Assembly: GCA_905215045.1 (NCBI GenBank)
Contig: CAJMOO010000038.1
Coordinates: forward strand, 1 to 17,882
Direction of reading: 5' to 3'
DNA length: 17,882 nt
Origin: an uncultured bacterium
GTDB taxonomy: Bacteria > Bacillota_A > Clostridia > Lachnospirales > Lachnospiraceae
Position 1 is the stretch's first letter. Every line of letters starts with the position of its first letter. A program made the position numbers and the translations under genes. This document shows positions 1,364 through 13,986 of the stretch, piece after piece. The notes beneath the pieces are model-generated. The model did no database searches. It was not told the DNA's origin and was given only the letters and a program-made list of their open reading frames with translations.

Positions 1364-1409
1364 CAAAAAAGCTGACAACTCCTGTGTTCATTGCACAGAA
1401 GTCATCAGC
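1364..1409 (-). terminator. Riboswitch expression-platform terminator
   Basis: On the minus strand, GCTGATGACTTCTGTG (1409-1394) pairs with CACAGGAGTTGTCAGC (1386-1371) around a 7-base loop. The 16-bp stem includes a few G-U pairs and is followed by six T's. The 5' arm overlaps the conserved GATGACTTCT end of the aptamer, so the aptamer fold and the terminator exclude each other, as in other fluoride ON switches. Confidence 0.9.
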
Positions 1410-1456
1410 TTAATAAGCGGTTTCGAATCTCTTCGAGGGAGAACTTCATTCCCTTT
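1393..1456 (-). promoter_or_regulatory. Fluoride riboswitch aptamer (crcB motif)
   Basis: Read on the minus strand, the leader contains GGGAATGAAGTTCTCCC, a small extra hairpin TCGAAGAGATTCGA, then AAACCGCTTATTAAGC and GCTGATGACTTCTGTG. From memory, the described crcB aptamer has GGCGATGGAGTTCGCC, AAACGC..., and TAATGACTCCT in the same order. The differences are compensatory: GAAGT pairs with ACTTC where the reference has GGAGT/ACTCC, and GGGA pairs with TCCC where it has GGCG/CGCC. The 3' part of the aptamer is also the 5' arm of a terminator, so fluoride binding would prevent termination and switch the CLC gene on. Confidence 0.9.
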
Positions 1457-1521: not shown

Positions 1522-2364
1522 TTATGCTTGCTCCAGTTTATCTCTTAAGAAATCCTTTGCATCTATAATTACCTGTTTCCAATCATCGTTTCCGACATAC
1601 CAGAATTCTCCTACAAACATTCTGACTCCCAGTCGTTTTAAAGTCTTTATATTTCTTACAAACTCAGTATGTCCTGTTCCAAATGGAATTTCTCTATATT
1701 TTCCTGGAACTGTCTCTTTTAAATGTGTTGCAAAAATATGTCCTTTTCCTGTCATTATGTCTTCATTAACATCTACGTCATATAAAAGAGATGCATTTTT
1801 CAGGTTTCCGATGTCTGGATATACTCCAAGATATGCCTGATCCACATCTTTTACATACACCATTGCTTTTTCTACCGTATCCATAAAAGGGGTTTCCATT
1901 GTTTCAAACCCTAGCAATACTCCCTGTTTCGCTGCCATGATAGCAGCTTCTTTCAGATTTGTCTTAAAATAATCTATTGTTTGAAAATCGCCTTGTTCAT
2001 AATATACATCATATCCAGCAAGCTGTATGACTCGTACTCCTAATCTTGCAGCCAGGCAAATGGCTTTCTCCATGATTTTCATTCCTCGTTCCCTGATCTT
2101 AGGATCATGTGATCCTAATGGATATTTTCGATGACCACTTAAGCAAATGGATTTTATAGGAACTCCTGTTTTTTCGATTGCCTTTTTTATTTCATCCACT
2201 GGCTGATCAAGTCTTGCAAGTTTTTCTTCGGTCTCATCAATGCTCATTTCCAGATAATCAAAACCTGCTTCTTTTACCACTTCCAGTTTTTCTTCCCATG
2301 AAAGTGTATTAGGCATACTTTTCTCATAAAGTCCCAAATAGTATTCTTTATTTTGATTGACCAT
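1522..2364 (-). CDS. ulaE: L-xylulose-5-phosphate 3-epimerase (UlaE/SgbU family)
   Basis: A 280-residue TIM-barrel enzyme of the xylose isomerase-like superfamily, predicted to interconvert L-xylulose-5-P and L-ribulose-5-P in the cytoplasm. Expected metal ligands are visible: Glu154 in GFETMETP, Asp184 in YPDIGN, the His of THLKET near 214, and Glu253 in FVGEFWY. The N-terminal LGLYEKSMP...SWEEKL is typical of UlaE. I chose the ATG at 2364 over the ATG at 2382 because a GGGGG-rich ribosome site sits about 8 bases before it; this makes it overlap the end of araD by 17 bases, implying coupled translation. It is the last gene of the long operon, directly after the 4-epimerase, so the pair would feed D-xylulose-5-P into the pentose phosphate pathway. 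Exact epimer specificity cannot be read from sequence. Confidence 0.93.
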
Positions 2365-3049
2365 AATACGCCCCCGGACCATGTTTACGGTTAAAATGTT
2401 TCTCTAATAATGTCTGCTGCATTGGTCCAATTTCTGGATTTGTGACCAACATCGCAATTGCGTTCATTTTTGCACATTCCTCTAAAACAACTGCATTATG
2501 AACCGCATTAAAACCATCACTTCCCCATGTAAATGGTCCATGACTATGTACGAGTGCCCCTGGTACTCTTTCCGGATTGATTCCTCGTCTTTTAAATTCG
2601 TCCACAATGACTTTTCCTGTCTCTAATTCATAACTTCCCTTTATTTCTCCATCTGTCATGAGTCTGGTGCATGGAACTGCTCCGTCAAAATAATCTGCCT
2701 GCGTTGTGCCTAACGCGATAATATCTTTTCCTGCCTGTGCAAAACCAGTTGCCCATGTGGAATGTGTATGTACAACCCCGCCAATTCCTGGCCAGTTTCG
2801 ATAAAATTCCAAATGTGTATCTACATCAGAACTTGGTCTTAATTCTCCTTCAAGGATATTTCCTTCAAGATCTATAAGAACAATATCTTCCGCTGTCATC
2901 TTGCTGTATTCTACTCCACTTGGTTTAATTGCAACAATTTCTTTTTCTCGGTCAATTTCTGATACATTTCCCCATGTAAATGTAACTAATCCATGTTGCG
3001 GTAATAATAAATTTGCCTCTAATACCTTCTGTTTTAATTCTTCTAACAT
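2348..3049 (-). CDS. araD: L-ribulose-5-phosphate 4-epimerase (AraD/UlaF/SgbE)
   Basis: A 233-residue class II aldolase-fold zinc enzyme converting L-ribulose-5-P to D-xylulose-5-P. Length matches E. coli AraD (231). Visible active-site residues are Asp75 in RPSSDVD, zinc ligands His94 and His96 in VVHTHSTWA, His170 in [10 protein letters not shown], and the C-terminal tyrosine in GAYYGQ. A GAGGGA ribosome site precedes the start. It lies 33 bases after the propeller-like gene and overlaps ulaE. There are no arabinose isomerase or ribulokinase genes nearby, so the pairing with UlaE points to an ascorbate- or L-xylulose-like route (the UlaF role) rather than arabinose catabolism. That role is inferred from context; the enzyme family is certain. 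Confidence 0.96.
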
Positions 3050-3082
3050 AAAATCCCTCGCTTATTAATATGTATTCAGGTT

Positions 3083-4114
3083 TTATTCTGTTACAAAGTA
3101 TACAGCTGCTTCATTTGCTGTGTGGTTTGCTGCTACAATGATATCTCTGTCTTTTTCGTTAACTACACACAGATTCGCAGGTCCTACTCCTTTTTCTATC
3201 ATTGTGACTTTATATTCTCCATCCTCATAAGTAACAGCAAATAATTCACAGTCTTTTCTTCTTACTCCACATACAAACGCATTTTGTCCTGCTAATTTTG
3301 TTCCAACAAGTGCATGTGCAAAATCAATTTCATTATCATACTTCCAGACTTTTGTATATTTTCCATTAATCTTTTTATAAATCTGAATCGTATCTCCATG
3401 AAATTCTTCGATCGTCATGATCTCATCTTCACCATCATTGTCAATATCAACCGTTGCTATTTCTCCGATATGTCCTTCCATGATCAGTTCTGTCTTCCAC
3501 TGTCCTCCTCGTTTCTGTGGTGCACTGACACGAAGAATTCCCTGATCACTTCCAAAGTATCCAACATCTTTTCCGACTTCCTTTGTCTGCCAGAATCCAT
3601 GATTTCTATATAATCCATCAACTAAAATTTCAAGTTCAACACCCTTTGCAGGGTCTTCTGGTAATTCTGCAACATAAATACGTCCCGGTACACTCCAATC
3701 GTTCTTTTCTTTTTTGGATGTCGCTACCGTTGCAGCAATCAGATAATTAATTCCGTTCGCATGGAAAATGCCAAAACGATGCACATATGGAATAGACACT
3801 ACATCTTTAAATTTCCATTCTCCATCTTCGTATTTTCCCCATACGATCTTAGCTAAAGATGGTGTTACTTTTAAATAAAATTCCTGTACAGCAAGGAATT
3901 CCTTTTCTTTTCCTGGAATCGGAACGATTGACATACATCCACCTGGTGTTGTCCAGACATTTTGTTTCTTTTCGAAATCTTTTCCATAATACATGTTACA
4001 AGCAATTTCTGGATCTTCACTTGCAAGTAGTACATGATTTTCTCCATCAAAGGAAATATTGCTTGCACAGTAGCATCTCTTCATCTCATCTAAATGTTTT
4101 TTCTCAATTTTCAT
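3083..4114 (-). CDS. Cytoplasmic beta-propeller-like (FG-GAP/VCBS-like) protein, unknown function
   Basis: A 343-residue protein I cannot assign to a characterised enzyme. It lacks a signal peptide and membrane segments. It shows repeated short beta-strand blocks of about 45-60 residues (for example around 60-80, 110-130, 185-195, 220-250, 265-300 and 305-340), as expected for a propeller. One block carries a calcium-loop-like DIDNDGEDE at 223-231, typical of FG-GAP/VCBS repeats, which are usually extracellular. Its position between the PTS permease and the two epimerases suggests an enzymatic step on the imported sugar phosphate, perhaps lactone hydrolysis or epimerisation, or a sensor role. 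That is speculation from context. An AAAAGGAG ribosome site precedes the ATG, and an internal hairpin separates it from the permease gene. Histidines in VHRFGIFHANG (112, 118), RNHGFW (172) and MEGHIGE (215) are candidate active-site residues. Confidence 0.75.
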   Translation of the reverse strand: MKIEKKHLDEMKRCYCASNISFDGENHVLLASEDPEIACNMYYGKDFEKKQNVWTTPGGCMSIVPIPGKEKEFLAVQEFYLKVTPSLAKIVWGKYEDGEWKFKDVVSIPYVHRFGIFHANGINYLIAATVATSKKEKNDWSVPGRIYVAELPEDPAKGVELEILVDGLYRNHGFWQTKEVGKDVGYFGSDQGILRVSAPQKRGGQWKTELIMEGHIGEIATVDIDNDGEDEIMTIEEFHGDTIQIYKKINGKYTKVWKYDNEIDFAHALVGTKLAGQNAFVCGVRRKDCELFAVTYEDGEYKVTMIEKGVGPANLCVVNEKDRDIIVAANHTANEAAVYFVTE

Positions 4115-4143
4115 GGTTTTTTCTCCTTTTTTGGGTATAAGAA

Positions 4144-4162
4144 AAGCTGCATAATGCAGCTT
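4144..4162 (-). terminator. Intra-operon hairpin (attenuator or partial terminator)
   Basis: An 8-bp perfect stem AAGCTGCA/TGCAGCTT with a 3-base loop lies in the 90-base gap between the permease and propeller genes. On the minus strand it is followed by TTTTCTTAT. It probably lowers expression of the three downstream genes relative to the PTS genes or stabilises the upstream mRNA end. Confidence 0.6.
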
Positions 4163-4204
4163 CTCTATTCTTCGATAAAATACGTTTTACTGCGAATTGT
4201 CTGA

Positions 4205-5266
4205 TTATCCAATTTCAATATCAAAATCATCTTTCAATTCTTCATCTTCATGTACTGTTTCAACTGGACGCGCTGGTTTTGTTACAGAAACAATTACCGC
4301 TGTAACCATAGCTCCGATCAACCATGCTGCAATCCATAACATTGGATTACTTGCCAGTGGAACCGAGAAGATTCCACCATGCAGTACAGGAACTGTTACT
4401 CCCCAAGTTAAGATTAATCCATGAGCAACACCTGAACCAATTGTTACCGCCGGAATGACTCGTTTCGGATCATTAAAGGCAAATGGTAATGCACCCTCTG
4501 TTACCTGACACAATGACATTGCGATCGCAACTTTTGCATCTTCTCTTTCTTGTTCTGTATATTTTTTAGGAGTTAATACCAGTGCTGAAATTGCCATACC
4601 CATTGGAGGTGCCATAGCCGCCGCATTTTTTCCGGCTGCAGGTCCCCAGATTCCAGAGGCTGCGAATGCACTGACAACAGAGAAACAAATTTTATTCACA
4701 GGGCCTCCCATATCAAATCCGGTCATACATCCTAAGATAAATCCTAATAAGAATTTTGATCCCGTGTTCATATTCATAAAGAAGTCAACAGCTGCCTGTG
4801 TTAATGCTGCAAGTGGCGGTCCAAAGACAAACATGATCAACAGCGTCGCTATAATTCCGGATATTACCGGATAAATAACGATCGGATACATTGATTTCAA
4901 AGCTTTTGAATCTGGGAAATGTTCCTGCATCCATAAGATCATAATACCAATTAAGAATCCACAAATTAATGCTCCAAGGAAACTGGCTTTTACCTGTGTT
5001 GACAAATATCCTGCTACTACACCTGGTGCAATTCCTGGTTTACCACAGATAGAGTAAGCAATTCCTGCACAAAGTACGGACATCATTAATGCAAATGCTG
5101 CATTTCCTGCCTGTAAGAATGCATATCCAATAGTTCCTGCTGTATCAACATTCCCTGCCAGACGAGCAAGTGCTGTACAAAATCCACCGATAACGATAAC
5201 AGGGATCATATAAGAGATACCACTCATACAATGCTGCTTTAAGTTTTTAAATACGTCTTTTAACAT
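4205..5266 (-). CDS. PTS fructose-family permease, IIC component
   Basis: A 353-residue integral membrane protein forming the sugar channel of a phosphotransferase system of the fructose-mannitol family. It begins with HCMSGISYMIPVIVIGG, a standard IIC opening, and carries the family signature FDMGGPVNK together with GPPLAALT and a late ALPFAFNDP segment. About nine or ten membrane spans are apparent, and the acidic C-terminal tail is cytoplasmic. IIA, IIB and IIC are separate genes here in the order A-B-C. An AAAGGAG site precedes the ATG. The family name does not prove fructose: the catabolic neighbours (6PGDH-like, UlaE, AraD) argue for a different hexose derivative or sugar acid, and there is no 1-phosphofructokinase gene nearby. 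Confidence 0.93.
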   Translation of the reverse strand: MLKDVFKNLKQHCMSGISYMIPVIVIGGFCTALARLAGNVDTAGTIGYAFLQAGNAAFALMMSVLCAGIAYSICGKPGIAPGVVAGYLSTQVKASFLGALICGFLIGIMILWMQEHFPDSKALKSMYPIVIYPVISGIIATLLIMFVFGPPLAALTQAAVDFFMNMNTGSKFLLGFILGCMTGFDMGGPVNKICFSVVSAFAASGIWGPAAGKNAAAMAPPMGMAISALVLTPKKYTEQEREDAKVAIAMSLCQVTEGALPFAFNDPKRVIPAVTIGSGVAHGLILTWGVTVPVLHGGIFSVPLASNPMLWIAAWLIGAMVTAVIVSVTKPARPVETVHEDEELKDDFDIEIG

Positions 5267-5288
5267 ATCTTCTCTCCTTTCAGTACTT

Positions 5289-5609
5289 TTATTTCTTCAA
5301 TGCACCTAATTTTTCTTCAATCTTACGAAGAAGATGTTCTGGTGATTTGATTGCTGTTGCAACAGGTACTTTAACCATTGGTTTTCCTTTGAATCTTTCT
5401 GTTCCAGATACAGCAACATCAGATGCGATCAATACACAATCTGCAGCATTGATATCTTCATCTGTTAATGCAAATTCAACACCACCGCTTCCCTGTGTTT
5501 CGATTTTTACACTCCATCCAAATTTTTCTCCAGTTTCTAACAGTTTTTCTCTAGCCATATAAGTATGTGCGATTCCACAAGTGCAAGATGTAATTCCAAC
5601 AATATTCAT
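5289..5609 (-). CDS. PTS fructose-family IIB component
   Basis: A 106-residue cytoplasmic phosphocarrier that takes phosphate from IIA and passes it to the sugar at IIC. The N-terminal active site is TSCTCGIAHTYMA, with Cys9 as the phosphorylation site. The family usually reads CPTGIAHT, so the Pro and Thr after the cysteine are replaced by Thr and a second Cys (Cys11). It is the same size as stand-alone FrwB/FrvB-type IIB domains. Only two bases separate it from the IIA stop codon, and its ribosome site lies inside the end of the IIA gene. The variant active site may mark a substrate subgroup. Confidence 0.93.
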   Translation of the reverse strand: MNIVGITSCTCGIAHTYMAREKLLETGEKFGWSVKIETQGSGGVEFALTDEDINAADCVLIASDVAVSGTERFKGKPMVKVPVATAIKSPEHLLRKIEEKLGALKK

Positions 5610-5611
5610 AA

Positions 5612-6091
5612 TTAAGCTTCCTTTCTCTTTGTAAATTCATTAAAATAAGTTTCAAATAGTTCAAAAAATTCTTCTTTTGTTTCACATTTCATTAACGCGT
5701 CGACATGTGCTTTATGTGCTACAACGCTAGCAAGCTGTGATAGATTCTGAAGATGTGTCTTCTGAAGATCTCCAGTTGGTGCTGCTAATAAGAAAATCAG
5801 ACTTACTGGCTGATCATCAAGGCTTTCCCATTCTACTGACTGTTTTACTTTTCCGATCGCAACACTTGCATTGATTACCTGATCTGTTAAACCATGAGGA
5901 ATCGCAATCCCTCCAAGACCTGTTTCTCCAATGCTTTCTCTTTCATAAACCGCTTCCAGGAATTTATCCAGATCTTTAATATTTCCTTTTTTATAAAGCA
6001 TAGAACTTAACTGTTTTAAAACTCCATCTTTATCTGTTGCATCCATATCCAGATCTATTAAATCAAGATCCAGAATGTCTAATAAATTCAT
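5612..6091 (-). CDS. PTS fructose/mannitol-family IIA component
   Basis: A 159-residue cytoplasmic phosphocarrier of the PTS EIIA-2 family, which receives phosphate from HPr. The phosphorylated histidine is His66 in GGIAIPHG, preceded by the expected ERESIGETGLG. Length is typical of a single-domain IIA. A strong AGGAGG site sits in the 15-base gap after the regulator gene. It can phosphorylate the adjacent IIB and possibly the regulator, linking transport to gene activation. Confidence 0.95.
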   Translation of the reverse strand: MNLLDILDLDLIDLDMDATDKDGVLKQLSSMLYKKGNIKDLDKFLEAVYERESIGETGLGGIAIPHGLTDQVINASVAIGKVKQSVEWESLDDQPVSLIFLLAAPTGDLQKTHLQNLSQLASVVAHKAHVDALMKCETKEEFFELFETYFNEFTKRKEA

Positions 6092-6106
6092 AATATGTAC
6101 CCTCCT

Positions 6107-7999
6107 TTAAAGTTTTTTACTTGCTTCTATTAATGTTTCATATATTTCTCTGTCTTTCTTGCATTCTCTTATCTTGTTGACTATCTCCATATTACTTAAC
6201 ATTTTATACAACCAGTTCATTTGCATTACATTTTTTGCATCTGTTTTTGCAACTGCTAACATTACGATAAAATCAACTTCCTGTGTGTTCCAGACAATCG
6301 GATGATCCAGCTTGCAAAATGCAATCTGTGTTCGCTTTACATCCTCATGGAATCCATGTGTCAGGATAATACCATCTCCTACTTCCGTAGATCCCATATT
6401 TTCTCTTTTTAAAACACCTTCAAAAAATCTTGGTGTCACTGCGCCGCACATGCGAAGATAATTTGACATCTCTTGCAAGACCTGAATCTTATCAATTTGC
6501 TCATGAAAGACTTTTACTGTCTGCATGGAGAAATTTGTTTTATTAATACTTGGATTTTTTCTTAATAGTGTTCGTATTTTCTGTACATCTACTTCCGTCA
6601 GCAGCGGATTTACTTGTACATAAGGTTTGTCTGTGTTAAGTTCCACTGTTGAAATGATATATTTACATTTTTCTAACTGTTCCTCATCATTCATGGAACA
6701 ATGAATAAATGTTACATCTGGGAAGTTTTCCTGAAGCTTTACAGAAAGTAATCTTGATACTCCTACTCCAAGAGAGCAGATAACCGCTACCTGCACATGA
6801 TCTTTTGCCTGCTGTACAGCTACTGACAAATGCAATGCCACATAAGCAATTTCTCCTTCACTTGCATTTGCTCCGATATATTTTTTGAAACTTGAATTGA
6901 TGATCAGAGCCAGATAATAATAGCTGGCATAATTAGTCTTAATCTCATTCAATAATGGGTTATATAGATTTAATCCATATTTCAAACGATATACTGTTGG
7001 AAGCAAATGAAGCATCAGTGATCTTTTAAACTGGTCATTTGATTCTAAATCTAATGACATGATCTTATCGGATTTCAAAATAAAATCTTCTGCTATATTT
7101 TCAGCAATCTTTCTCAGATCATTTAAAAAATCATTTTCTAAAAATGAGCTTTCATTCAAATACATACCTAAAAGATGCATAAGCAGATAATCTGCTTCAT
7201 CTTTTGGAATCTCACAATTTCCATATGTTGAAAGTTCCTTTATCAGGATGTCGAACTCTTCTTTATAAGAAAATGTCTCACTATCCAAGGCTTTTGAATT
7301 TTCTATTAATAATGCTTTATTTTTACCTATTCTCATTAACATAACCGATGCATGAAAAGCCAGATTGTTTATATTCACTTCATTTAAGTGCATATTATAA
7401 TTGTCATTCCAGTTATGTATAATGTCTTCGATTTCCTTAACATCAATATCCAGATATGTTTCCATCAAGCTTTCAATGGACTGATTTTTTTCACTCAGTT
7501 TACCTGCTAGTGCAGCAACTGCATTTCGAATATTTTCTTCATCTCCACTGACATAAAAACCTATACTTGGTTTCTTCATTAAACTAAGATCATATTTCTC
7601 CAGCCATTTTGAGATCTCCTGAAGATCTTTTTCAATTGTTGACTTGCTTACATAAAGATTATTCTGTAATTTATATGGATATATTTTATTTTTTGACAGC
7701 AATATCTGTACTAAAATGCAGCCTCTTCGGTATTCTTTCGAATAAGACTCTACTAAGTCATGTTCTCCTTTTACATCAAGAAACAATGCATCTTTTTCGT
7801 CTTGTGTACCTTCAATCCAAATACCAACTCTTGGTTTCTTTTCAAGTTTCATGGAATGAACCAGGATTTCTGATTCTATTTTTTCAAGATCAGATCGAAT
7901 CGTCCGGCTGCTGACATTTAACTGCTCTGCTAATTCTTGTGTTGTAAGTGGTTTTTCTGCTTTTAAAAGAATCTGAATTAAATTTTCTTGTCTGTTCAT
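6107..7999 (-). CDS. PRD- and PTS-domain transcriptional activator (BglG/MtlR/LicR type)
   Basis: A 630-residue regulator. Domain order: an N-terminal winged HTH (about 5-60, QELAEQLNVSSRTIRSDL), a second HTH (about 90-150, YKLQNNLYVSKSTIEKDL), PRD1 (about 190-280), PRD2 (about 300-395), an EIIB-like domain (about 400-490, VICSLGVGVSRLL) and an EIIA-like domain (about 495-630, ILTHGFHEDV). All expected phosphorylation sites are present: FHASVM and LMHLLG in PRD1, LHLLPT and ALHLSV in PRD2, the Cys in ICSLG and the His in LTHGF. The DNA-binding HTHs make it a DNA-level activator rather than an RNA antiterminator. It lies inside the operon directly before the PTS genes, whose uptake activity would set its phosphorylation state. 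Its start overlaps the stop of the upstream small membrane gene (ATGA), implying coupled translation. Confidence 0.95.
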   Translation of the reverse strand: MNRQENLIQILLKAEKPLTTQELAEQLNVSSRTIRSDLEKIESEILVHSMKLEKKPRVGIWIEGTQDEKDALFLDVKGEHDLVESYSKEYRRGCILVQILLSKNKIYPYKLQNNLYVSKSTIEKDLQEISKWLEKYDLSLMKKPSIGFYVSGDEENIRNAVAALAGKLSEKNQSIESLMETYLDIDVKEIEDIIHNWNDNYNMHLNEVNINNLAFHASVMLMRIGKNKALLIENSKALDSETFSYKEEFDILIKELSTYGNCEIPKDEADYLLMHLLGMYLNESSFLENDFLNDLRKIAENIAEDFILKSDKIMSLDLESNDQFKRSLMLHLLPTVYRLKYGLNLYNPLLNEIKTNYASYYYLALIINSSFKKYIGANASEGEIAYVALHLSVAVQQAKDHVQVAVICSLGVGVSRLLSVKLQENFPDVTFIHCSMNDEEQLEKCKYIISTVELNTDKPYVQVNPLLTEVDVQKIRTLLRKNPSINKTNFSMQTVKVFHEQIDKIQVLQEMSNYLRMCGAVTPRFFEGVLKRENMGSTEVGDGIILTHGFHEDVKRTQIAFCKLDHPIVWNTQEVDFIVMLAVAKTDAKNVMQMNWLYKMLSNMEIVNKIRECKKDREIYETLIEASKKL

Positions 8000-8307
8000 A
8001 TATTTCTCACCTGCGGAATTGTTACGATCAATGGATCTTTAAATGAATATTGGCTACCTGTATATTCTAATCCCTTTTTTTGTTCATGGCTATGAAGTAT
8101 TCGAACTAGATTTCCATATCGATATAAATAATATGTCAGTGCCACAGCTAAAATCGTTAAGCATATTGCTGCAAGCCATACAAGATTAAACAAACATGCT
8201 CCTACACCGACAACTCCTAGAATACTTTTGATGTATGTCATTGTCGTATTCCATGTGATATTGATATTTTTATTTTTTTCATCTCTTTCAATCTTGTAAA
8301 ACCACAT
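7996..8307 (-). CDS. Small two-helix membrane protein, unknown function
   Basis: A 103-residue protein with a charged N-terminus, two probable membrane helices (about 25-41 and 43-62, separated by a very short turn) and a soluble C-terminal tail of about 40 residues. I do not recognise a family. A clear AAAGGAG site 8 bases before the ATG, the 12-base gap after gnd, and the ATGA overlap with the regulator start show it is a real gene co-translated with the regulator. Both ends are probably cytoplasmic if the hairpin model holds. A role as a membrane anchor or modulator of the regulator or PTS complex is conceivable but only by position. Confidence 0.8.
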   Translation of the reverse strand: MWFYKIERDEKNKNINITWNTTMTYIKSILGVVGVGACLFNLVWLAAICLTILAVALTYYLYRYGNLVRILHSHEQKKGLEYTGSQYSFKDPLIVTIPQVRNI

Positions 8308-8319
8308 ATAATTTCTCCT

Positions 8320-9216
8320 TTATTTTGACTGAGCTTTGTGTCCTCCAACCTCATCTCTTAAAGATGCGATCACTTTCGCTGAAAATGAATCATCCTGTTT
8401 TGATCTTAAACGCATCATCAGTGAAGTAGAAATAATTGGGATTGGAACTCCAAGTTCACAAGCAGACTCGATTGTCCATCCTGTTGTTTTACTTGCTCCA
8501 ACAACTCCTTTGATCTTTTCTAGATCTGGATCTTTTCTAAATGCATTTGCTGCAAGTTCTAACAGCCATCCTCTGATAACACTTGATTTACTAAGTGAAT
8601 CTGCAACGTGTTCCAGATCGTAATCAAATTCACTTTTTTCAAGAAGTTCAAATCCTTCTCCTAATGTCTGCATGTATCCATATAACATTGCATTGTGAAT
8701 CATTTTAAGATAATGACCACTTCCTGTTTTTCCTGTGTAAAGACATCCGTTTGTTGTTGCAATGCTTTCTAACATTTCCTGAAGATCATTTTTAAATACT
8801 TCCGGATCTCCTCCACACATAAAACTTGCCCCGTGTCTTGCTCCGTAAACCCCTCCGCTTGTTCCGATATCAAAGAAATAAATTCCTTTCTCTTCCATCT
8901 TCTTTGCTGTCTTTAAGCTGTCTCGATGATCTGAATTTCCACCATCGATCACGATGTCTCCTTTTTTACATAAACCACTTAATTCATCTAATACTGAATT
9001 TGTGATCTTTCCAGCTGGTAACATAACCCAGATCACATCTTTCTGATCCGCAGATACCAAACCTTTTAGAGTTTCATATGATTTAATTCCAGATTCTTCA
9101 GCCTTCTTTCTGGCTTCTTCATTTACATCGAATCCTTCTACATCAACCTCGTGGTCTTTCATATTCAGGGCTAAATTAAATCCCATTTTTCCAAGACCTA
9201 CCATTTTTAATTTCAT
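8320..9216 (-). CDS. gnd: 6-phosphogluconate dehydrogenase-like enzyme, short (YqeC/Gnd) type
   Basis: A 298-residue NAD(P)-dependent oxidative decarboxylase of the 6PGDH / beta-hydroxyacid dehydrogenase superfamily. Visible features: the Rossmann loop GLGKMG at 7-12, VMLPAG at 64-69, the substrate-binding DGGNSDHRDS at 91-100, SGGVYGARHGASFMCGG at 120-136, and the catalytic KMIHN with Lys171 and Asn175. It is the short form of about 300 residues, not the 470-residue E. coli form. I start at 9216, not the ATG at 9240, because a perfect AAAGGAG lies 7 bases before it. It is the first gene of the PTS operon. Its true substrate may be 6-phosphogluconate or another 6-phosphohexonate; the neighbouring L-pentulose epimerases make the latter worth considering. 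Confidence 0.92.
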   Translation of the reverse strand: MKLKMVGLGKMGFNLALNMKDHEVDVEGFDVNEEARKKAEESGIKSYETLKGLVSADQKDVIWVMLPAGKITNSVLDELSGLCKKGDIVIDGGNSDHRDSLKTAKKMEEKGIYFFDIGTSGGVYGARHGASFMCGGDPEVFKNDLQEMLESIATTNGCLYTGKTGSGHYLKMIHNAMLYGYMQTLGEGFELLEKSEFDYDLEHVADSLSKSSVIRGWLLELAANAFRKDPDLEKIKGVVGASKTTGWTIESACELGVPIPIISTSLMMRLRSKQDDSFSAKVIASLRDEVGGHKAQSK

Positions 9217-9260: not shown

Positions 9261-9289
9261 ATTATATGAATTTTTTTGTGACATTTCTA
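9261..9289 (-). promoter_or_regulatory. Probable promoter of the gnd-PTS-epimerase operon
   Basis: A perfect -10 TATAAT (9266-9261) lies 17 bases after a 4/6 -35 match TAGAAA (9289-9284). Transcription would start near 9254, about 38 bases before the gnd ATG. The poor -35 fits a promoter that needs an activator, such as the PRD regulator or the divergent RpiR protein. Confidence 0.65.
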
Positions 9290-9380: not shown

Positions 9381-9398
9381 TTTTTGAAAGATATCAAA

Positions 9399-9427
9399 TT
9401 GACACACTTTATAATTCGTGTTAACTT
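9399..9427 (+). promoter_or_regulatory. Tentative promoter of the rpiR gene
   Basis: A perfect TTGACA (9399-9404) is followed at 17 bases by TAACTT (9422-9427), only a 3/6 -10 match. A better -10, TATAAT, occurs at 9410-9415 but has no -35 at proper spacing (TTGAAA at 9384 is 20 bases away). One of these probably drives rpiR; I cannot decide which. Confidence 0.4.
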
Positions 9428-9452
9428 TCTTAGTATCAGAAAGGAGCTGTCC

Positions 9453-10307
9453 ATGCAAATTATAAAAACGTCAGTCATCGAAAATATTAAACATAACTTT
9501 GAAGAACTCTTTCCTGCAGAGAAAAAAACTGCACAATATATCCTTGATCATCTTGAAGAAGTAACCCTTCTTAATATCTCACAGCTTGCTAAAAAAGCTC
9601 ATGCAAGTGAAGCTTCCATTGTCAGAATGGCAAAACATCTAGGGTATAATGGTTTCTTCCAAATGCGGCTTCTTCTTTCAAATGATGTCGCACAAAAAGA
9701 CAGTGATATGTTAAACAATGCCCCCTTACTTACAAGTGAAAAAATATTTTCTGCTTGTGCAAACCGCATTCGTTCACTCTCAAGTTTCATCTCTACAAAT
9801 GATCTGCTCTGTGCTGCAAAATTGATCTGTGAAGCCAGAATATGTCATATTATAGGGGCTGGAAATACAATCCCGATTGCTTCTGATCTTGGATTCCGCC
9901 TTCAGAGGAACGGGCAATCCTGTATGTATTCTTCATTGCCAGAACAGTATTTTAATAACATTGCACTTGGTGATTCTTCTGATCTTGTAATTGCGATCAG
10001 TCGTTCTGGTGCTTCAACACAAGTTTTAAAAGCGCTTTCCCTTGCTAAGAAAAAAGAAATGAAGATTCTTGTGATCACTGCTGATCCAAACTCTCAGATC
10101 ATGGATTTTTCAGATGCTATTTTACAGATTAACGACACGAATGAAATGCATGATCAAAATGTTCGTGCTGATTCTCATTTATTAGAACTCGCTGTCAATG
10201 ATGCTCTCATTTATGTTATTAAAAATTATCCTCTCTTTAATTTTGATGATAAATTGCCAACTCAGATAAACGATGTAGAATTATTGCTTAGCGAAACTAA
10301 ATTTTAG
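9453..10307 (+). CDS. RpiR/MurR-family sugar-phosphate-responsive regulator
   Basis: A 284-residue regulator with an N-terminal RpiR helix-turn-helix (about 1-77, NISQLAKKAHASEASIVRMAKHLGY) and a C-terminal SIS sugar-phosphate-binding domain (about 125-255, HIIGAGNT and AISRSGAST at 181-189). SIS domains of this family sense phosphosugars. I start at the ATG at 9453, with AAAGGAG 8 bases before it, rather than the frame's first ATG at 9384, which has no such site and lies before the promoter elements. It is transcribed divergently from the gnd-PTS operon and just ahead of the aldolase operon, so it can be expected to control one or both. It is followed by its own terminator, so it is a separate unit. 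Confidence 0.94.
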   Translation: MQIIKTSVIENIKHNFEELFPAEKKTAQYILDHLEEVTLLNISQLAKKAHASEASIVRMAKHLGYNGFFQMRLLLSNDVAQKDSDMLNNAPLLTSEKIFSACANRIRSLSSFISTNDLLCAAKLICEARICHIIGAGNTIPIASDLGFRLQRNGQSCMYSSLPEQYFNNIALGDSSDLVIAISRSGASTQVLKALSLAKKKEMKILVITADPNSQIMDFSDAILQINDTNEMHDQNVRADSHLLELAVNDALIYVIKNYPLFNFDDKLPTQINDVELLLSETKF

Positions 10308-10322
10308 ATATGAATTTTTATG

Positions 10323-10357
10323 TAGATGAAATATATTTTTATTTCATCTATTTTTTA
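10323..10357 (+). terminator. Intrinsic terminator of rpiR
   Basis: A perfect 10-bp stem TAGATGAAAT/ATTTCATCTA (10323-10332 with 10341-10350) and 8-base loop is followed immediately by a run of six T's. It lies 16 bases after the rpiR stop and directly before the promoter of the aldolase operon. Confidence 0.85.
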
Positions 10358-10386
10358 TTGACTTTTGTGAAAATATTTTTTATAAT
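10358..10386 (+). promoter_or_regulatory. Promoter of the aldolase-PPC-kinase operon
   Basis: TTGACT (10358-10363), a 17-base spacer and a perfect TATAAT (10381-10386) form a strong sigma-A promoter. The spacer contains one copy of a 15-base repeat that recurs 41 bases downstream in the leader. Confidence 0.85.
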
Positions 10387-10423
10387 AACCACAATCCCAA
10401 AGTTTCTATGAAAATATTTTTTA
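10368..10423 (+). repeat. Pair of identical 15-base repeats, candidate operators
   Basis: TGAAAATATTTTTTA occurs at 10368-10382, inside the promoter spacer and touching the -10, and again at 10409-10423, just before the ribosome site of the aldolase gene. The core GAAAATATTTT is nearly palindromic. The copies are 41 bases apart, close to four helical turns. Position and symmetry suit repression by a dimeric regulator such as the adjacent RpiR protein; AT-richness lowers confidence. Confidence 0.5.
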
Positions 10424-10437
10424 CGAAGGAGGTATTT

Positions 10438-11274
10438 ATGTTAGTTACAATGAAGGAAATTCTTGATCGAGCAAAAAAAGATAATTATGGTGTTACTGCC
10501 CCGAATGTACAAAGTGAGGATACCGTACGTGCTGTTATCAAAGTTGCTGAAAAGTGTAATTCTCCAATGATCATTGATGTGAATGCTTTTATACATCCCG
10601 ATCTTCCGTGGTTTATACACATGATCCGTGATCTTACAGAAAAATCACCTGTACCTTTTGCAATCAATTTAGATCATGGAAAAAGTTATGAAGATATCAT
10701 GTTAGGAATCAATTCTGGTTTTACTTCCATTATGGTTGATTGTTCTTCTTTAAGCTATGAAGATAATATTGCTCAGACAAAAGAGACTGTAAAAATGTGC
10801 CGTCCTCTTAATATCAGTGTAGAAGCTGAATTAGGTCACGTTGGTCAGGGTGTTGATTATTCTTCCGATGGTTCTGATCATTTTACAAACCCTGAAGAAG
10901 CAAGAAAATTTGTGGAAGAAACAGGAATCGATTGTCTTGCTGTAGCTATCGGAACTGCTCATGGACGTTATCACGGCACTCCTCACATCGATTTTGATCT
11001 GTTAAAACAGATTACCGATATTGTAGATATACCACTTGTATTACATGGTGGAAGTGGAACTGGTGATGAAAATTTAAGAAAAGCTGTAAAAAATGGTATT
11101 CAGAAAGTCAACCTTGCAACAGAACTTGTCGTTGCCGGAAAAGAAGAATTAGAAACTTTTATTCAAGATAAAAACTTTGATAAATGGCAGTTGATTCCGT
11201 CTTTTATCAAGGGATATTCTGACCGTCTGGAACATTATGTGAAATTATTTGATCAGGAAAATAGAGCTTGGTAA
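10438..11274 (+). CDS. Class II (zinc) ketose-bisphosphate aldolase family protein
   Basis: A 278-residue TIM-barrel aldolase of the FbaA/GatY/KbaY family, cleaving a keto-sugar (bis)phosphate, usually yielding dihydroxyacetone phosphate. Visible residues: Asp79-His80 in INLDHG, Glu131 in EAELGHVGQ, zinc ligands His175 in GTAHGRYHG and His203 in LVLHGGSGTG, and the phosphate-binding VNLATEL. The start at 10438 has a GAAGGAGG site; the ATG at 10408 lies in the leader without one. Some family motifs differ: APNVQSEDT replaces AFNVxNxET and DCSSLSYEDNI replaces DGSxLPxEENI. It therefore looks like a specialised paralogue rather than the glycolytic enzyme. It leads an operon with a PPC protein and a DUF1537 kinase, pointing to sugar-acid degradation. 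Substrate unknown. Confidence 0.9.
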   Translation: MLVTMKEILDRAKKDNYGVTAPNVQSEDTVRAVIKVAEKCNSPMIIDVNAFIHPDLPWFIHMIRDLTEKSPVPFAINLDHGKSYEDIMLGINSGFTSIMVDCSSLSYEDNIAQTKETVKMCRPLNISVEAELGHVGQGVDYSSDGSDHFTNPEEARKFVEETGIDCLAVAIGTAHGRYHGTPHIDFDLLKQITDIVDIPLVLHGGSGTGDENLRKAVKNGIQKVNLATELVVAGKEELETFIQDKNFDKWQLIPSFIKGYSDRLEHYVKLFDQENRAW

Positions 11275-11287
11275 GGAGGATTTTATT

Positions 11288-11752
11288 ATGATACGTTTTC
11301 ATGATGCCTGCGGAACTACAGGTAAAACAGTTGCTGCAAGATTACTGCCCGACACAGATTTGATCGAAGGTATTGAAGAAGTATGTAAAAAAAATAATAT
11401 TAAACATGCTTATGTTACCTGTTTTGGAAGTTTTAAAAAATGTGGTTATATGTATCTTGTTCCAAAAGAAGATGCGAAAGTCGGCGCTGGATATGGGAAT
11501 GTTCTGCAAAAAGACGGCCCAGTAGAATTTCTAAATGGAACCGGTGTTGTTTGTCAAAATAATAATGCCTATGACACACATTTTCATGCGACAATGTGTG
11601 ATGCTTCTGGTAATGTCTTTGGTGGTCATATTGTAAAAGGATATACTCCAACACTGACAACCGTTGATCTTATTATTTTTGAAATCAAAGATATTGAAAT
11701 GCTTCGTGTTTACGATGAAGAAACTGATCTTACACAATTTCTTCCTGAGTAA
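11288..11752 (+). CDS. PPC domain (DUF296) protein
   Basis: A 154-residue single-domain protein of the PPC/DUF296 family, the domain also found in plant AT-hook proteins. The diagnostic stretch is THFHATMCDASGNVFGGH (97-114) with His98, His100 and His114, a histidine trio able to bind metal. VTCFGSF (43-49) matches the family's VTGxGS segment, with Cys in place of the usual Gly. The start at 11288 is fixed by an AGGAGG site overlapping the aldolase stop region; the ATG at 11249 lies inside the aldolase gene. Bacterial PPC proteins have no settled function. Being sandwiched between an aldolase and a sugar-acid kinase suggests a metabolic or ligand-binding role, not chromatin binding: no AT-hook is present. 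Confidence 0.88.
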   Translation: MIRFHDACGTTGKTVAARLLPDTDLIEGIEEVCKKNNIKHAYVTCFGSFKKCGYMYLVPKEDAKVGAGYGNVLQKDGPVEFLNGTGVVCQNNNAYDTHFHATMCDASGNVFGGHIVKGYTPTLTTVDLIIFEIKDIEMLRVYDEETDLTQFLPE

Positions 11753-11798
11753 TATCGTTTGTTGGAATCATTTAGTTTTTTAACGGAGGGGCATACTT

Positions 11799-12995
11799 AT
11801 GAAACATATAAAACTTGCTGTTATTGCAGATGATTTTACAGGCGGGGCAGATGCCGCAAGTTTTCTAAAACGGAAACACGCAAATGTTGTTTTGTTAACA
11901 GGAATCCCTCAAACTCTTCCTGATTGTGACTGTGTAGTTTTTGCCTTGAAAATACGCAGTATTCCTGTATCTGATGCGCTTAAGAAAGTTCATGACGTTC
12001 TGCTCTTTTTAGATCAGTATCATGTTGAACATTTATATTATAAATATTGCTCTACTTTTGACTCTACACCAAAAGGAAATATTGGACCTGTTATGGATTT
12101 CCTTCTCGACTACTATGATCTTCCTTACAGCATTCTCTGTCCATCCCTTCCAGTAAATGGGCGTACTGTTGAAAATGGCATTCTTTATGTGAATCATCAA
12201 AAGTTATCAGAAAGCCCTTTAAAAGATCACCCGTTAAATCCCATGTGGGATTCTTATATTCCTAAAATTATGGAACTACAAAGCAAATACCCTTGTTTTG
12301 TACTGAAACGAAACGAGTCTTTAACGTCATTTCTGGAAGAGAGAATGAGATCAGATTCAAAGTTTTATATTGTCCCTGATTATTCTGATTCTCAGGATGC
12401 TAAAAGAATCGTATCTTGTTTTGGAGATAATTTTCTCTATAGTGGTGGAAGTGGATTATTAGAATTTCTTTTTGATTTTTCTTCTCCAGAAAAAATTTTT
12501 CAGACATCTTTTGATAACCGCACGATCATTTTATGTGGAAGCTGTTCAAAAGCTACCAGGCTGCAAATACAACATTTTAGCGAAAATTATGAATGTTTAT
12601 CTATCAATGAATCCAGTGATGATCTGACTTACATAACATCACTTATTGATGAGCAGAAAAGTCCATTGTTAATATATAGTGATGCTGTGTTGAAAAATTT
12701 TAAAACAGAAAAAAAATCCTCTGCACTTTATACAGCTGCCAGGAAAATAGAGTCTATTCTATCTTCCATTGCTGTTTATGCAAAAGATCATAACTATCAC
12801 AAAATCATTGTTGCTGGTGGAGAAACTTCTGGAGCTGTGACCTCAAGATTAGGGTATACCGCTTTTTATATCGGTCAGGAAATCTGCCCTGGGGTTCCTG
12901 TTTTAATCCCTGAAGAAGATGAGCATTTACAGCTTATATTGAAATCTGGAAATTTTGGTGGTAAGGATTTCTTTTTGAAAGCTATGAATATGTGA
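11799..12995 (+). CDS. Four-carbon acid sugar kinase family protein (DUF1537, OtnK/DtnK-like)
   Basis: A 398-residue ATP-dependent kinase that phosphorylates small sugar acids, such as threonate (DtnK) or 3-oxo-tetronate (OtnK) in characterised relatives. The N-terminal domain carries AVIADDFTGGADAA (7-20), ALKIRSIP (49-56) and YKYCSTFDSTPKGNIGP (81-97). The C-terminal nucleotide-binding domain carries VAGGETSGAV, PGVPVLIP and LKSGNFGGKDFF near the end. Length is slightly below the usual 410-430. GGAGGGG lies about 9 bases before the ATG. Typical DUF1537 partners (a PdxA2 dehydrogenase or an OtnC decarboxylase) are absent and a class II aldolase takes their place, so the product may be a longer keto-acid phosphate split by aldol cleavage. 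That is inference. Confidence 0.92.
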   Translation: MKHIKLAVIADDFTGGADAASFLKRKHANVVLLTGIPQTLPDCDCVVFALKIRSIPVSDALKKVHDVLLFLDQYHVEHLYYKYCSTFDSTPKGNIGPVMDFLLDYYDLPYSILCPSLPVNGRTVENGILYVNHQKLSESPLKDHPLNPMWDSYIPKIMELQSKYPCFVLKRNESLTSFLEERMRSDSKFYIVPDYSDSQDAKRIVSCFGDNFLYSGGSGLLEFLFDFSSPEKIFQTSFDNRTIILCGSCSKATRLQIQHFSENYECLSINESSDDLTYITSLIDEQKSPLLIYSDAVLKNFKTEKKSSALYTAARKIESILSSIAVYAKDHNYHKIIVAGGETSGAVTSRLGYTAFYIGQEICPGVPVLIPEEDEHLQLILKSGNFGGKDFFLKAMNM

Positions 12996-13069: not shown

Positions 13070-13942
13070 TCATGCTAATATCTCTTTCACTTCGGATTCT
13101 TCAATGTTACATTCTTCTGCTATCTGTGCTGCAGTATAACCCTTTTGAGATAACTTGAAAACTTTCTTTGCCAGTTGTATTCCCTCATCCTTAGCAGTTC
13201 TCATCCGGCTCACCTCGTCACTCACTGCCATTTCCTCTCTCAGATATAAATACCGTTCTTTCTCATCCTGACTCATCTTATACATCTCATTCTTCACCGC
13301 CTCTCTATATGGGTTCCCACGAATTGTTTCCTCGACCTGCTTCCAATCCTTTGCCGCAAGTAATTTCGCCCAATAGTACAATTCTGTCTGTTTTTCTTCT
13401 TCTGTTGCTGATTCTACTTGTTTTAATTGTACCACATGAAATTGTAACTTACTACTATATTCCTCGTTTGTCTTTATATCTAATAATTTAATATGATGAT
13501 GAAATCCAGGTGTTTTCATTAAATCAAAATCCAAAATCCCAACATGAATACATGGTTCTAAATCGCCATATGGCTGTCCATGATAAAGTCCTTCCGTAAA
13601 CATTCTGCAATTATAAAACAAACTTCGTTCTGTCCAGTCTTCTTGATAACGATTCTGCATTTCAATATTAATTTTCTTATTGTCGTTTAAATAAATTTTT
13701 ATATCCAGAATTCCCTCTTTTTCTTCTTCATTCTCCCCCTCTTCAAACGGATCAATAACTTCTAGCTTCACAACATCTTCTTCATCCAATCCCAATAATG
13801 CAATCAAAAATCCTCTTGCAATATAATTCATTTTAAATAATTTGCGAAATGCATAATTGTTTGTCAATTGAATGTTTAATGGTTCTTTTTCTGCTGCCTT
13901 TTTTCTTAAATACTGTTCTCTTGAATAAATGGTATCTTTCAT
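13070..13942 (-). CDS. Rpn/PD-(D/E)XK nuclease family ('transposase' PF12784-like) protein
   Basis: A 290-residue protein of the Rpn/recombination-promoting nuclease family, often annotated as PD-(D/E)XK nuclease family transposase. The N-terminal LTNNYAFRKLFK opens the nuclease domain, and the active-site pattern is Asp80 in ILDIKI and Glu94-x-Gln96 in INIEMQ. Middle blocks SLFYNCRMFTEGL and HVGILDFDL are typical. The C-terminal AKKVFKLSQKGYTAAQIAEECNI resembles a small helix-turn-helix. The start at 13942 is supported by AAGGAGG 7 bases upstream; the in-frame ATG at 13972 lacks one. No terminal inverted repeats or target duplications flank it, so it appears as a single gene with its own promoter, not a mobile element. 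Relatives are multicopy in many Firmicutes; their cellular role is poorly known. Confidence 0.9.
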   Translation of the reverse strand: MKDTIYSREQYLRKKAAEKEPLNIQLTNNYAFRKLFKMNYIARGFLIALLGLDEEDVVKLEVIDPFEEGENEEEKEGILDIKIYLNDNKKINIEMQNRYQEDWTERSLFYNCRMFTEGLYHGQPYGDLEPCIHVGILDFDLMKTPGFHHHIKLLDIKTNEEYSSKLQFHVVQLKQVESATEEEKQTELYYWAKLLAAKDWKQVEETIRGNPYREAVKNEMYKMSQDEKERYLYLREEMAVSDEVSRMRTAKDEGIQLAKKVFKLSQKGYTAAQIAEECNIEESEVKEILA

Positions 13943-13986
13943 GCCCTTCCTCCTTTTTACATTAATATCCAATTTTTGTAATTTGA

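Follow-up and report, generated by a model that had tools for sequence, protein, structure and literature searches.

In the ula operon of E. coli (UlaABC, UlaG, UlaD, UlaE and UlaF), UlaD converts 3-keto-L-gulonate-6-phosphate to L-xylulose-5-phosphate; as UlaD/KGPDC it belongs to the OMP decarboxylase suprafamily and folds as a TIM barrel. The stretch of uncultured bacterial DNA analysed here (17,882 nucleotides of contig CAJMOO010000038.1, “the window”) carries an operon that shares with the ula system UlaE, AraD/UlaF and, as proposed below, the 3-keto-L-gulonate-6-phosphate intermediate. It lacks UlaG, UlaD and an ascorbate-family phosphotransferase system (PTS), and has instead a fructose-family PTS, an enzyme resembling 6-phosphogluconate dehydrogenase (6PGDH, or Gnd) and a propeller protein, here called PROP; its regulator is of the PRD type, that of E. 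coli ula the DeoR-type UlaR. Our strongest result reaches beyond this operon: judged from gene content across many genomes, PROP appears to take the place of UlaD without being homologous to it; the same reaction is proposed for it in the same kind of operon, with an unrelated beta-propeller fold.

Other described systems resemble parts of the locus. The solved fold closest to the PROP model is the propeller of aldos-2-ulose dehydratase/isomerase (AUDH; 4A7K, 4A7Y, 4A7Z; 13% identity), an enzyme that as a whole consists of a propeller, two cupin domains and a lectin domain; PROP, by contrast, is bacterial, sits beside ascorbate genes, lacks the cupin and lectin domains and probably catalyzes another reaction. 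Short NAD-dependent 6PGDH (TIGR00872) has length, cofactor domain and the Lys, His and Asn flanking the active site in common with the window enzyme, which differs in having Leu for the catalytic Glu, a different PTS and PROP as partner. The tetronate pathways (DenD, LtnD, OtnK, OtnC) handle C4 acids, whereas the window route would start from C6; points of contact are a D-erythronate dehydrogenase at one PROP locus and an OtnK-like kinase in the window's divergent operon, and no OtnC-type gene was recognized in the loci read, for which no OtnC profile search was made.

PROP and UlaD at ascorbate operons

PROP has no match in Pfam, NCBIfam or PDB sequences, and no publication assigning it a function was found in open PubMed Central papers; one of these papers mentions an uncharacterized hypothetical protein that follows ulaF in Catonella morbi. 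The predicted structure is an all-beta propeller, of which residues 1–342 align with the AUDH propeller alone, and PROP has neither the sequence family nor the TIM-barrel fold of UlaD. Four His are invariant in a 124-sequence alignment of the family, as part of an invariant His/Arg set, and a metal site is probable.

Relatives of PROP occur in 35 of the 299 genomes of the family of the nearest genome (G001). A UlaG-type protein, first recognized by eye and with relatives in named-genome loci that match E. coli UlaG, was present at 23 of this family's 37 PROP loci, many of which also held UlaE, AraD and UlaABC; UlaD was looked for in these 37 at genome level only. Scanning named genomes turned up 285 relatives, the best 80 of which (from Clostridia, other Bacillota, Spirochaetes and Proteobacteria) were used for locus analysis, less two (L115, L133) with no PROP open reading frame (ORF) called. 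Within 8 kb of PROP, the 78 loci hold UlaE (50), UlaG (49), UlaF/AraD (39), an FGGY kinase (32), UlaA (25) and UlaD (none), with 30 of them ending at a contig boundary inside that distance. The order UlaG-UlaC-UlaA-UlaB-PROP-AraD-UlaE is found in Youngiibacter (L100) and Pectinatus (L127), and UlaG-UlaC-UlaA-UlaB-PROP-UlaE-UlaF in Caloramator (L114).

The replacement test picked genomes by UlaA (required at E 1e-60) and not by PROP, which gave 7 of 348 in one set and 17 of 195 in another. Twelve of the UlaA loci hold PROP together with UlaB, UlaC, UlaG, UlaE and UlaF/AraD and no UlaD; eleven hold UlaD with UlaB, UlaC, UlaE and UlaF but lack PROP; the remaining one (G442) has neither of the two and is also without UlaG and UlaE. 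No Gnd was found at the UlaD-less ascorbate operons with PROP. Of the gene families sought at these 23 ula operons, only PROP is present at 12/12 PROP loci and 0/11 UlaD loci, the corresponding counts being 12 versus 4 for UlaG and 11 versus 1 for DeoR. Whole-genome tallies for the same 24 genomes are similar (UlaD only, 11; PROP only, 11; both, 1; neither, 1), and in G459 and G589, members of one family, the swap is seen directly. UlaA calls in 28 genomes of G001's family divide into 14 at 7e-52 or weaker, which were taken to be other PTS proteins, and 14 strong ones at 6e-82 or better; every genome of the strong group carries PROP, nine of them within 10 kb. Fisher values, which ignore shared descent, are 7e-7 for the operons and 6e-15 for G001's family. 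On this pattern of presence and absence, we consider it likely that PROP replaces UlaD.

Several other explanations of the pattern were tried and rejected. UlaD proteins keep E112/R139/T169, which we take to be the UlaD residues, while the UlaD-like proteins encoded in PROP genomes, about 30% identical, carry Asp112 and lack both Arg139 and Thr169 wherever the alignment covers them, a hexulose-phosphate-synthase-like combination (the check spanned 45 loci, two of them without alignment, two aligned in part and one with Ser169). The possibility that a hidden UlaD performs the decarboxylation was checked in the genomes of 40 of the 80 named PROP loci: seven have a UlaD-like match, of which only that in G321 is true, the other six having Asp112, no Arg139 and Ala169. 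A lactonase role for PROP in place of UlaG was rejected on the presence of UlaG at 12/12 UlaA-anchored PROP loci, and a merely structural, VCBS-like role on the invariant His/Arg set and the recurrent place of PROP in catabolic operons.

If PROP does replace UlaD, many bacteria, gut Lachnospiraceae included, degrade vitamin C by way of a decarboxylase of unrelated fold, and their ascorbate pathways would look incomplete in annotation because PROP carries no Pfam or NCBIfam family name. A protein family without a name, with 285 relatives in one scan, would gain a function, and PROP would to our knowledge be the first propeller decarboxylase.

At L101, L104, L107, L147, L157 and other loci, PROP stands beside UlaG and an FGGY kinase, in some cases with ABC transporter genes. 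UlaA is absent there, and the loci may encode a kinase-based route for ascorbate or keto-gulonate that does not use a PTS.

The window operon and a putative hexonate route

The operon consists of nine tightly packed genes at 1522–9216 (intergenic gaps of -35 to +90 bases), most of them preceded by a Shine-Dalgarno-like sequence. These, with the flanking signal-like sites, are:

9261..9289, minus strand: promoter-like site 5' of gnd (10 of 12 positions)
8320..9216, minus strand: 6PGDH-like dehydrogenase, short type, 298 amino acids from the ATG at 9216 (TIGR00872, 332 bits, cut-off 297)
7996..8307, minus strand: small membrane-like protein, about 102 amino acids (ORF; 54% identical counterpart at locus L227)
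6107..7999, minus strand: PRD-containing transcriptional regulator with a C-terminal EIIA-like domain (profile matches)
5612..6091, minus strand: PTS EIIA, fructose family (TIGR00848, above cut-off)
5289..5609, minus strand: PTS EIIB, fructose family (TIGR00829, above cut-off)
4205..5266, minus strand: PTS EIIC, fructose family (TIGR01427, above cut-off; no Pfam match)
3083..4114, minus strand: PROP, propeller protein, 343 amino acids, proposed 3-keto-L-gulonate-6-phosphate decarboxylase (context and predicted fold)
2348..3049, minus strand: AraD/UlaF, L-ribulose-5-phosphate 4-epimerase (PRK08193 subfamily, 365 bits, cut-off 257)
1522..2382, minus strand: UlaE, L-xylulose-5-phosphate 3-epimerase (TIGR00542, 296 bits, cut-off 272)
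1369..1411, minus strand: terminator-like hairpin 3' of ulaE, 18 pairs and a T tail (consensus match only)

The promoter scan did no better than chance, with 29 such sites in comparison with 31.4 expected in shuffles. AraD is 59% identical to E. coli UlaF and scores 367 bits against the equivalog TIGR00760, short of its cut-off of 389; Glu, Asp, His and Glu of UlaE align with E. coli E155/D185/H211/E251, presumably the metal-site residues. A plasmid search with UlaE returned 61 records, every one below 60% identity. The initial annotation had described this gene set as a tight minus-strand operon, and all the genes it named are present and identified by profile, apart from the propeller, which has no profile match; it had not listed the 102-residue protein, for which Pfam and NCBIfam give no match either. 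It was also right about the absence of UlaD and UlaG: no ulaD or ulaG is found among the ORFs of the whole window, a genome search of G001 gave no UlaG match, and the sole UlaD-like protein of G001 (30% identity) has D112/A139/A169 rather than the E112/R139/T169 of UlaD. UlaA-like proteins of G001 score E 1.8e-49 or weaker.

The same gene set had been suggested as worth seeking in other genomes; it is whole in G001, at 95–100% identity, and partial, as far as PROP, at locus L227 of G902, a genome taken from the family of the Erysipelotrichaceae metagenome-assembled genome (MAG) G305. There the order Gnd-small protein-PRD-IIA-IIB-IIC-PROP is repeated at 49–84% identity, and this recurrence is more than chance. 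A third genome, G882, has an ascorbate operon (L243: UlaG-C-A-B-PROP-AraD-UlaE) whose PROP, AraD and UlaE are 72, 77 and 65% identical to those of the window. In a tree of the 124 PROP sequences (not all independent, some contigs being present in both genome sets), the window-type and L227 Gnd-PTS copies group together (support 0.85) with the G882 copy adjacent (0.998), and both sit inside a 13-tip clade (0.988) whose remaining 11 tips are ascorbate-PTS PROPs; deeper nodes are weaker, with support down to 0.18. Given this tree and the shared PROP-AraD-UlaE module, it seems that Gnd and a fructose-family PTS took over from a front end of UlaG and UlaABC, with the back end kept, and we propose the product of UlaG, 3-keto-L-gulonate-6-phosphate, as the natural joining point of both routes. 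G001 additionally holds a fragmented second PROP copy (L067; G001:C1:2167807-2168709).

The 6PGDH-like protein has Leu, in the motif HNAMLYG, where 6PGDH has its catalytic Glu (presumably E190 in the sheep enzyme), the acid that protonates the enediol once decarboxylation has occurred. HNAMLYG is found in 4/4 aligned window-type Gnds, two linked to PROP and two being database proteins whose genomic context was unseen. Among the best 120 of 8000 candidates scored, all at least 87% identical and forming one close group, 119 have Leu at this position and the remaining one did not fit the search pattern; the closest named relatives among the matches listed come from uncultured Anaerostipes (91%) and Holdemanella (89%), which makes an Anaerostipes host probable. 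Outgroup Gnds came from the family of MAG G305, in which 10 of 115 genomes have a relative at E 1e-50 and all ten regions were taken; the eight aligned (46–51% identity; L236 is a fragment, and L232, a near-copy of L231, was left out) all keep Glu, as HNGIEYG. Because the Glu is lost beside a separate decarboxylase candidate, the sequence suggests that the window enzyme is a plain C3 dehydrogenase without the decarboxylation acid.

The proposed route would then run as follows: the fructose-family PTS would import a hexonate as its 6-phosphate; the 6PGDH-like enzyme, judged by its family and the missing acid, would oxidize C3 to give 3-keto-L-gulonate-6-phosphate; PROP, in the role of UlaD, would decarboxylate this beta-keto acid to L-xylulose-5-phosphate; and UlaE and AraD, from their family assignments, would yield L-ribulose-5-phosphate and D-xylulose-5-phosphate. 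By our own stereochemical working, four hexonates (L-gulonate, L-idonate, L-galactonate and L-talonate) could, as their 6-phosphates, produce L-xylulose-5-phosphate through C3 oxidation and decarboxylation. Assuming that C3 is configured as in gluconate narrows them to L-gulonate or L-idonate (the C5 epimer of D-gluconate), and the chance that the substrate is one of these two is about even. That the Gnd-like enzyme feeds PROP is fairly probable, and to the reading as a whole, that the operon catabolizes a six-carbon aldonic acid with C4 and C5 matching L-xylulose through Gnd-like oxidation, PROP decarboxylation and the epimerases, we give a probability of roughly 0.62. If true, it would reveal a PTS route for hexonates. 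The initial annotation had anticipated such a PTS-linked route, one that enters the ascorbate pathway with neither UlaG nor UlaD, and it stays plausible, with the decarboxylation step moved to PROP.

Points against the route and competing readings

A number of observations weigh against the route or against PROP as its decarboxylase. Leu for Glu is no proof of lost decarboxylation; the listed Gnds with Leu are closely related, with linkage to PROP shown only for window/G001 and L227, and Gnds of 51–84% identity were not seen among the relatives found. The complete window-type operon was seen only in G001 among the genomes searched, the L227 contig ending before the positions of AraD and UlaE. 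We know of no propeller decarboxylase, and PROP could do other chemistry, AUDH being a dehydratase. Nor is PROP tied to ascorbate alone, since 21 of the 35 PROP genomes of G001's family lack a strong UlaA and 14 of the 78 loci (30 of the 78 being contig-cut within 8 kb) have no ula gene nearby. Seven of the 11 genomes with UlaD belong to a related, TGA-reading Mycoplasma type, so that the Fisher values overstate independence, and true UlaD and PROP occur together in G066 (1/35), G321 (1/40) and G825 (1/12), in the last with UlaD on a different contig from the ula operon.

One alternative, close to what the initial annotation had put forward, is that the 6PGDH-like protein alone oxidizes and decarboxylates a 6-phosphohexonate, PROP being an accessory such as a lactonase or mutarotase acting earlier. 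The protein does pass the cut-off of the decarboxylating family TIGR00872 and its active site is still flanked by Lys, His and Asn; however, Leu replaces Glu in nearly all of the closest homologues listed while the outgroup keeps it, and the UlaA-anchored PROP loci already have UlaG as lactonase and lack UlaD. We consider this unlikely, and prefer PROP as the decarboxylase because it is present in UlaD-less ascorbate operons at which no Gnd was found.

Less likely again, PROP could be some other enzyme of these routes, an isomerase or dehydratase, with 3-keto-L-gulonate-6-phosphate decarboxylating by itself or through a gene elsewhere. The nearest solved fold is indeed that of a dehydratase, and beta-keto acids can slowly lose CO2 unaided; the mutual exclusion of PROP and UlaD at 23 ula operons, a pattern found for no other family looked for, argues instead for PROP as the decarboxylase. 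An ordinary gluconate PTS operon, with canonical 6PGDH producing D-ribulose-5-phosphate and UlaE and AraD serving another substrate, would fit the outgroup Gnds, which adjoin mannose-type PTS genes and in some cases KDPG-aldolase-like or 2-hydroxyacid-dehydrogenase genes (translations read, no profile search), but is very improbable given a PTS of a different family, the altered active site and the repeated linkage to a PROP of the ascorbate-PTS clade.

Possible tetronate loci and window neighbors

PROP relatives at L125, L128, L134 and L138 lie beside TRAP transporter, D-erythronate-dehydrogenase-like, DhaK/DhaL-like or tartronate-semialdehyde-reductase-like genes. The dehydrogenase at L125 scores 451 bits in NCBIfam (cut-off 325), and at L128 there are DhaK/DhaL-like genes together with two dehydrogenases resembling tartronate-semialdehyde reductase. 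Ten hand-picked TRAP-type or ula-free loci, one of which (L110) has UlaF nearby, group in a clade of 12 tips (support 0.993) whose other members, L116 and L143, have UlaG and a kinase. As a lead only, these settings would suit a PROP-type decarboxylase that converts an oxo-tetronate to dihydroxyacetone. A broader picture, to which we give even odds, is of a metal-dependent beta-propeller family of 3-keto sugar acid decarboxylases that would replace UlaD across several phyla and may act on oxo-tetronates in some Proteobacteria, the window being a case in which the 6PGDH reaction is split over two proteins for L-idonate or L-gulonate.

Divergent from the operon, on the plus strand at 9384–12995, are genes for an RpiR regulator, a class II aldolase, a PCC-domain protein and a DUF1537 kinase, the last scoring 317 bits against the 3-oxo-tetronate kinase profile (below its cut-off of 350). 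This set was not seen beside the operon at L227; a possible sign of decay in G001 (L031) is that only fragments of the kinase and of the PCC protein were matched in that genome, and the aldolase over 81%. An Rpn-family PD-(D/E)XK nuclease/transposase gene follows at 13070–13972 (minus strand), and downstream of the operon, at 136–1332 on the minus strand, lies a gene for a ClC-type chloride channel.

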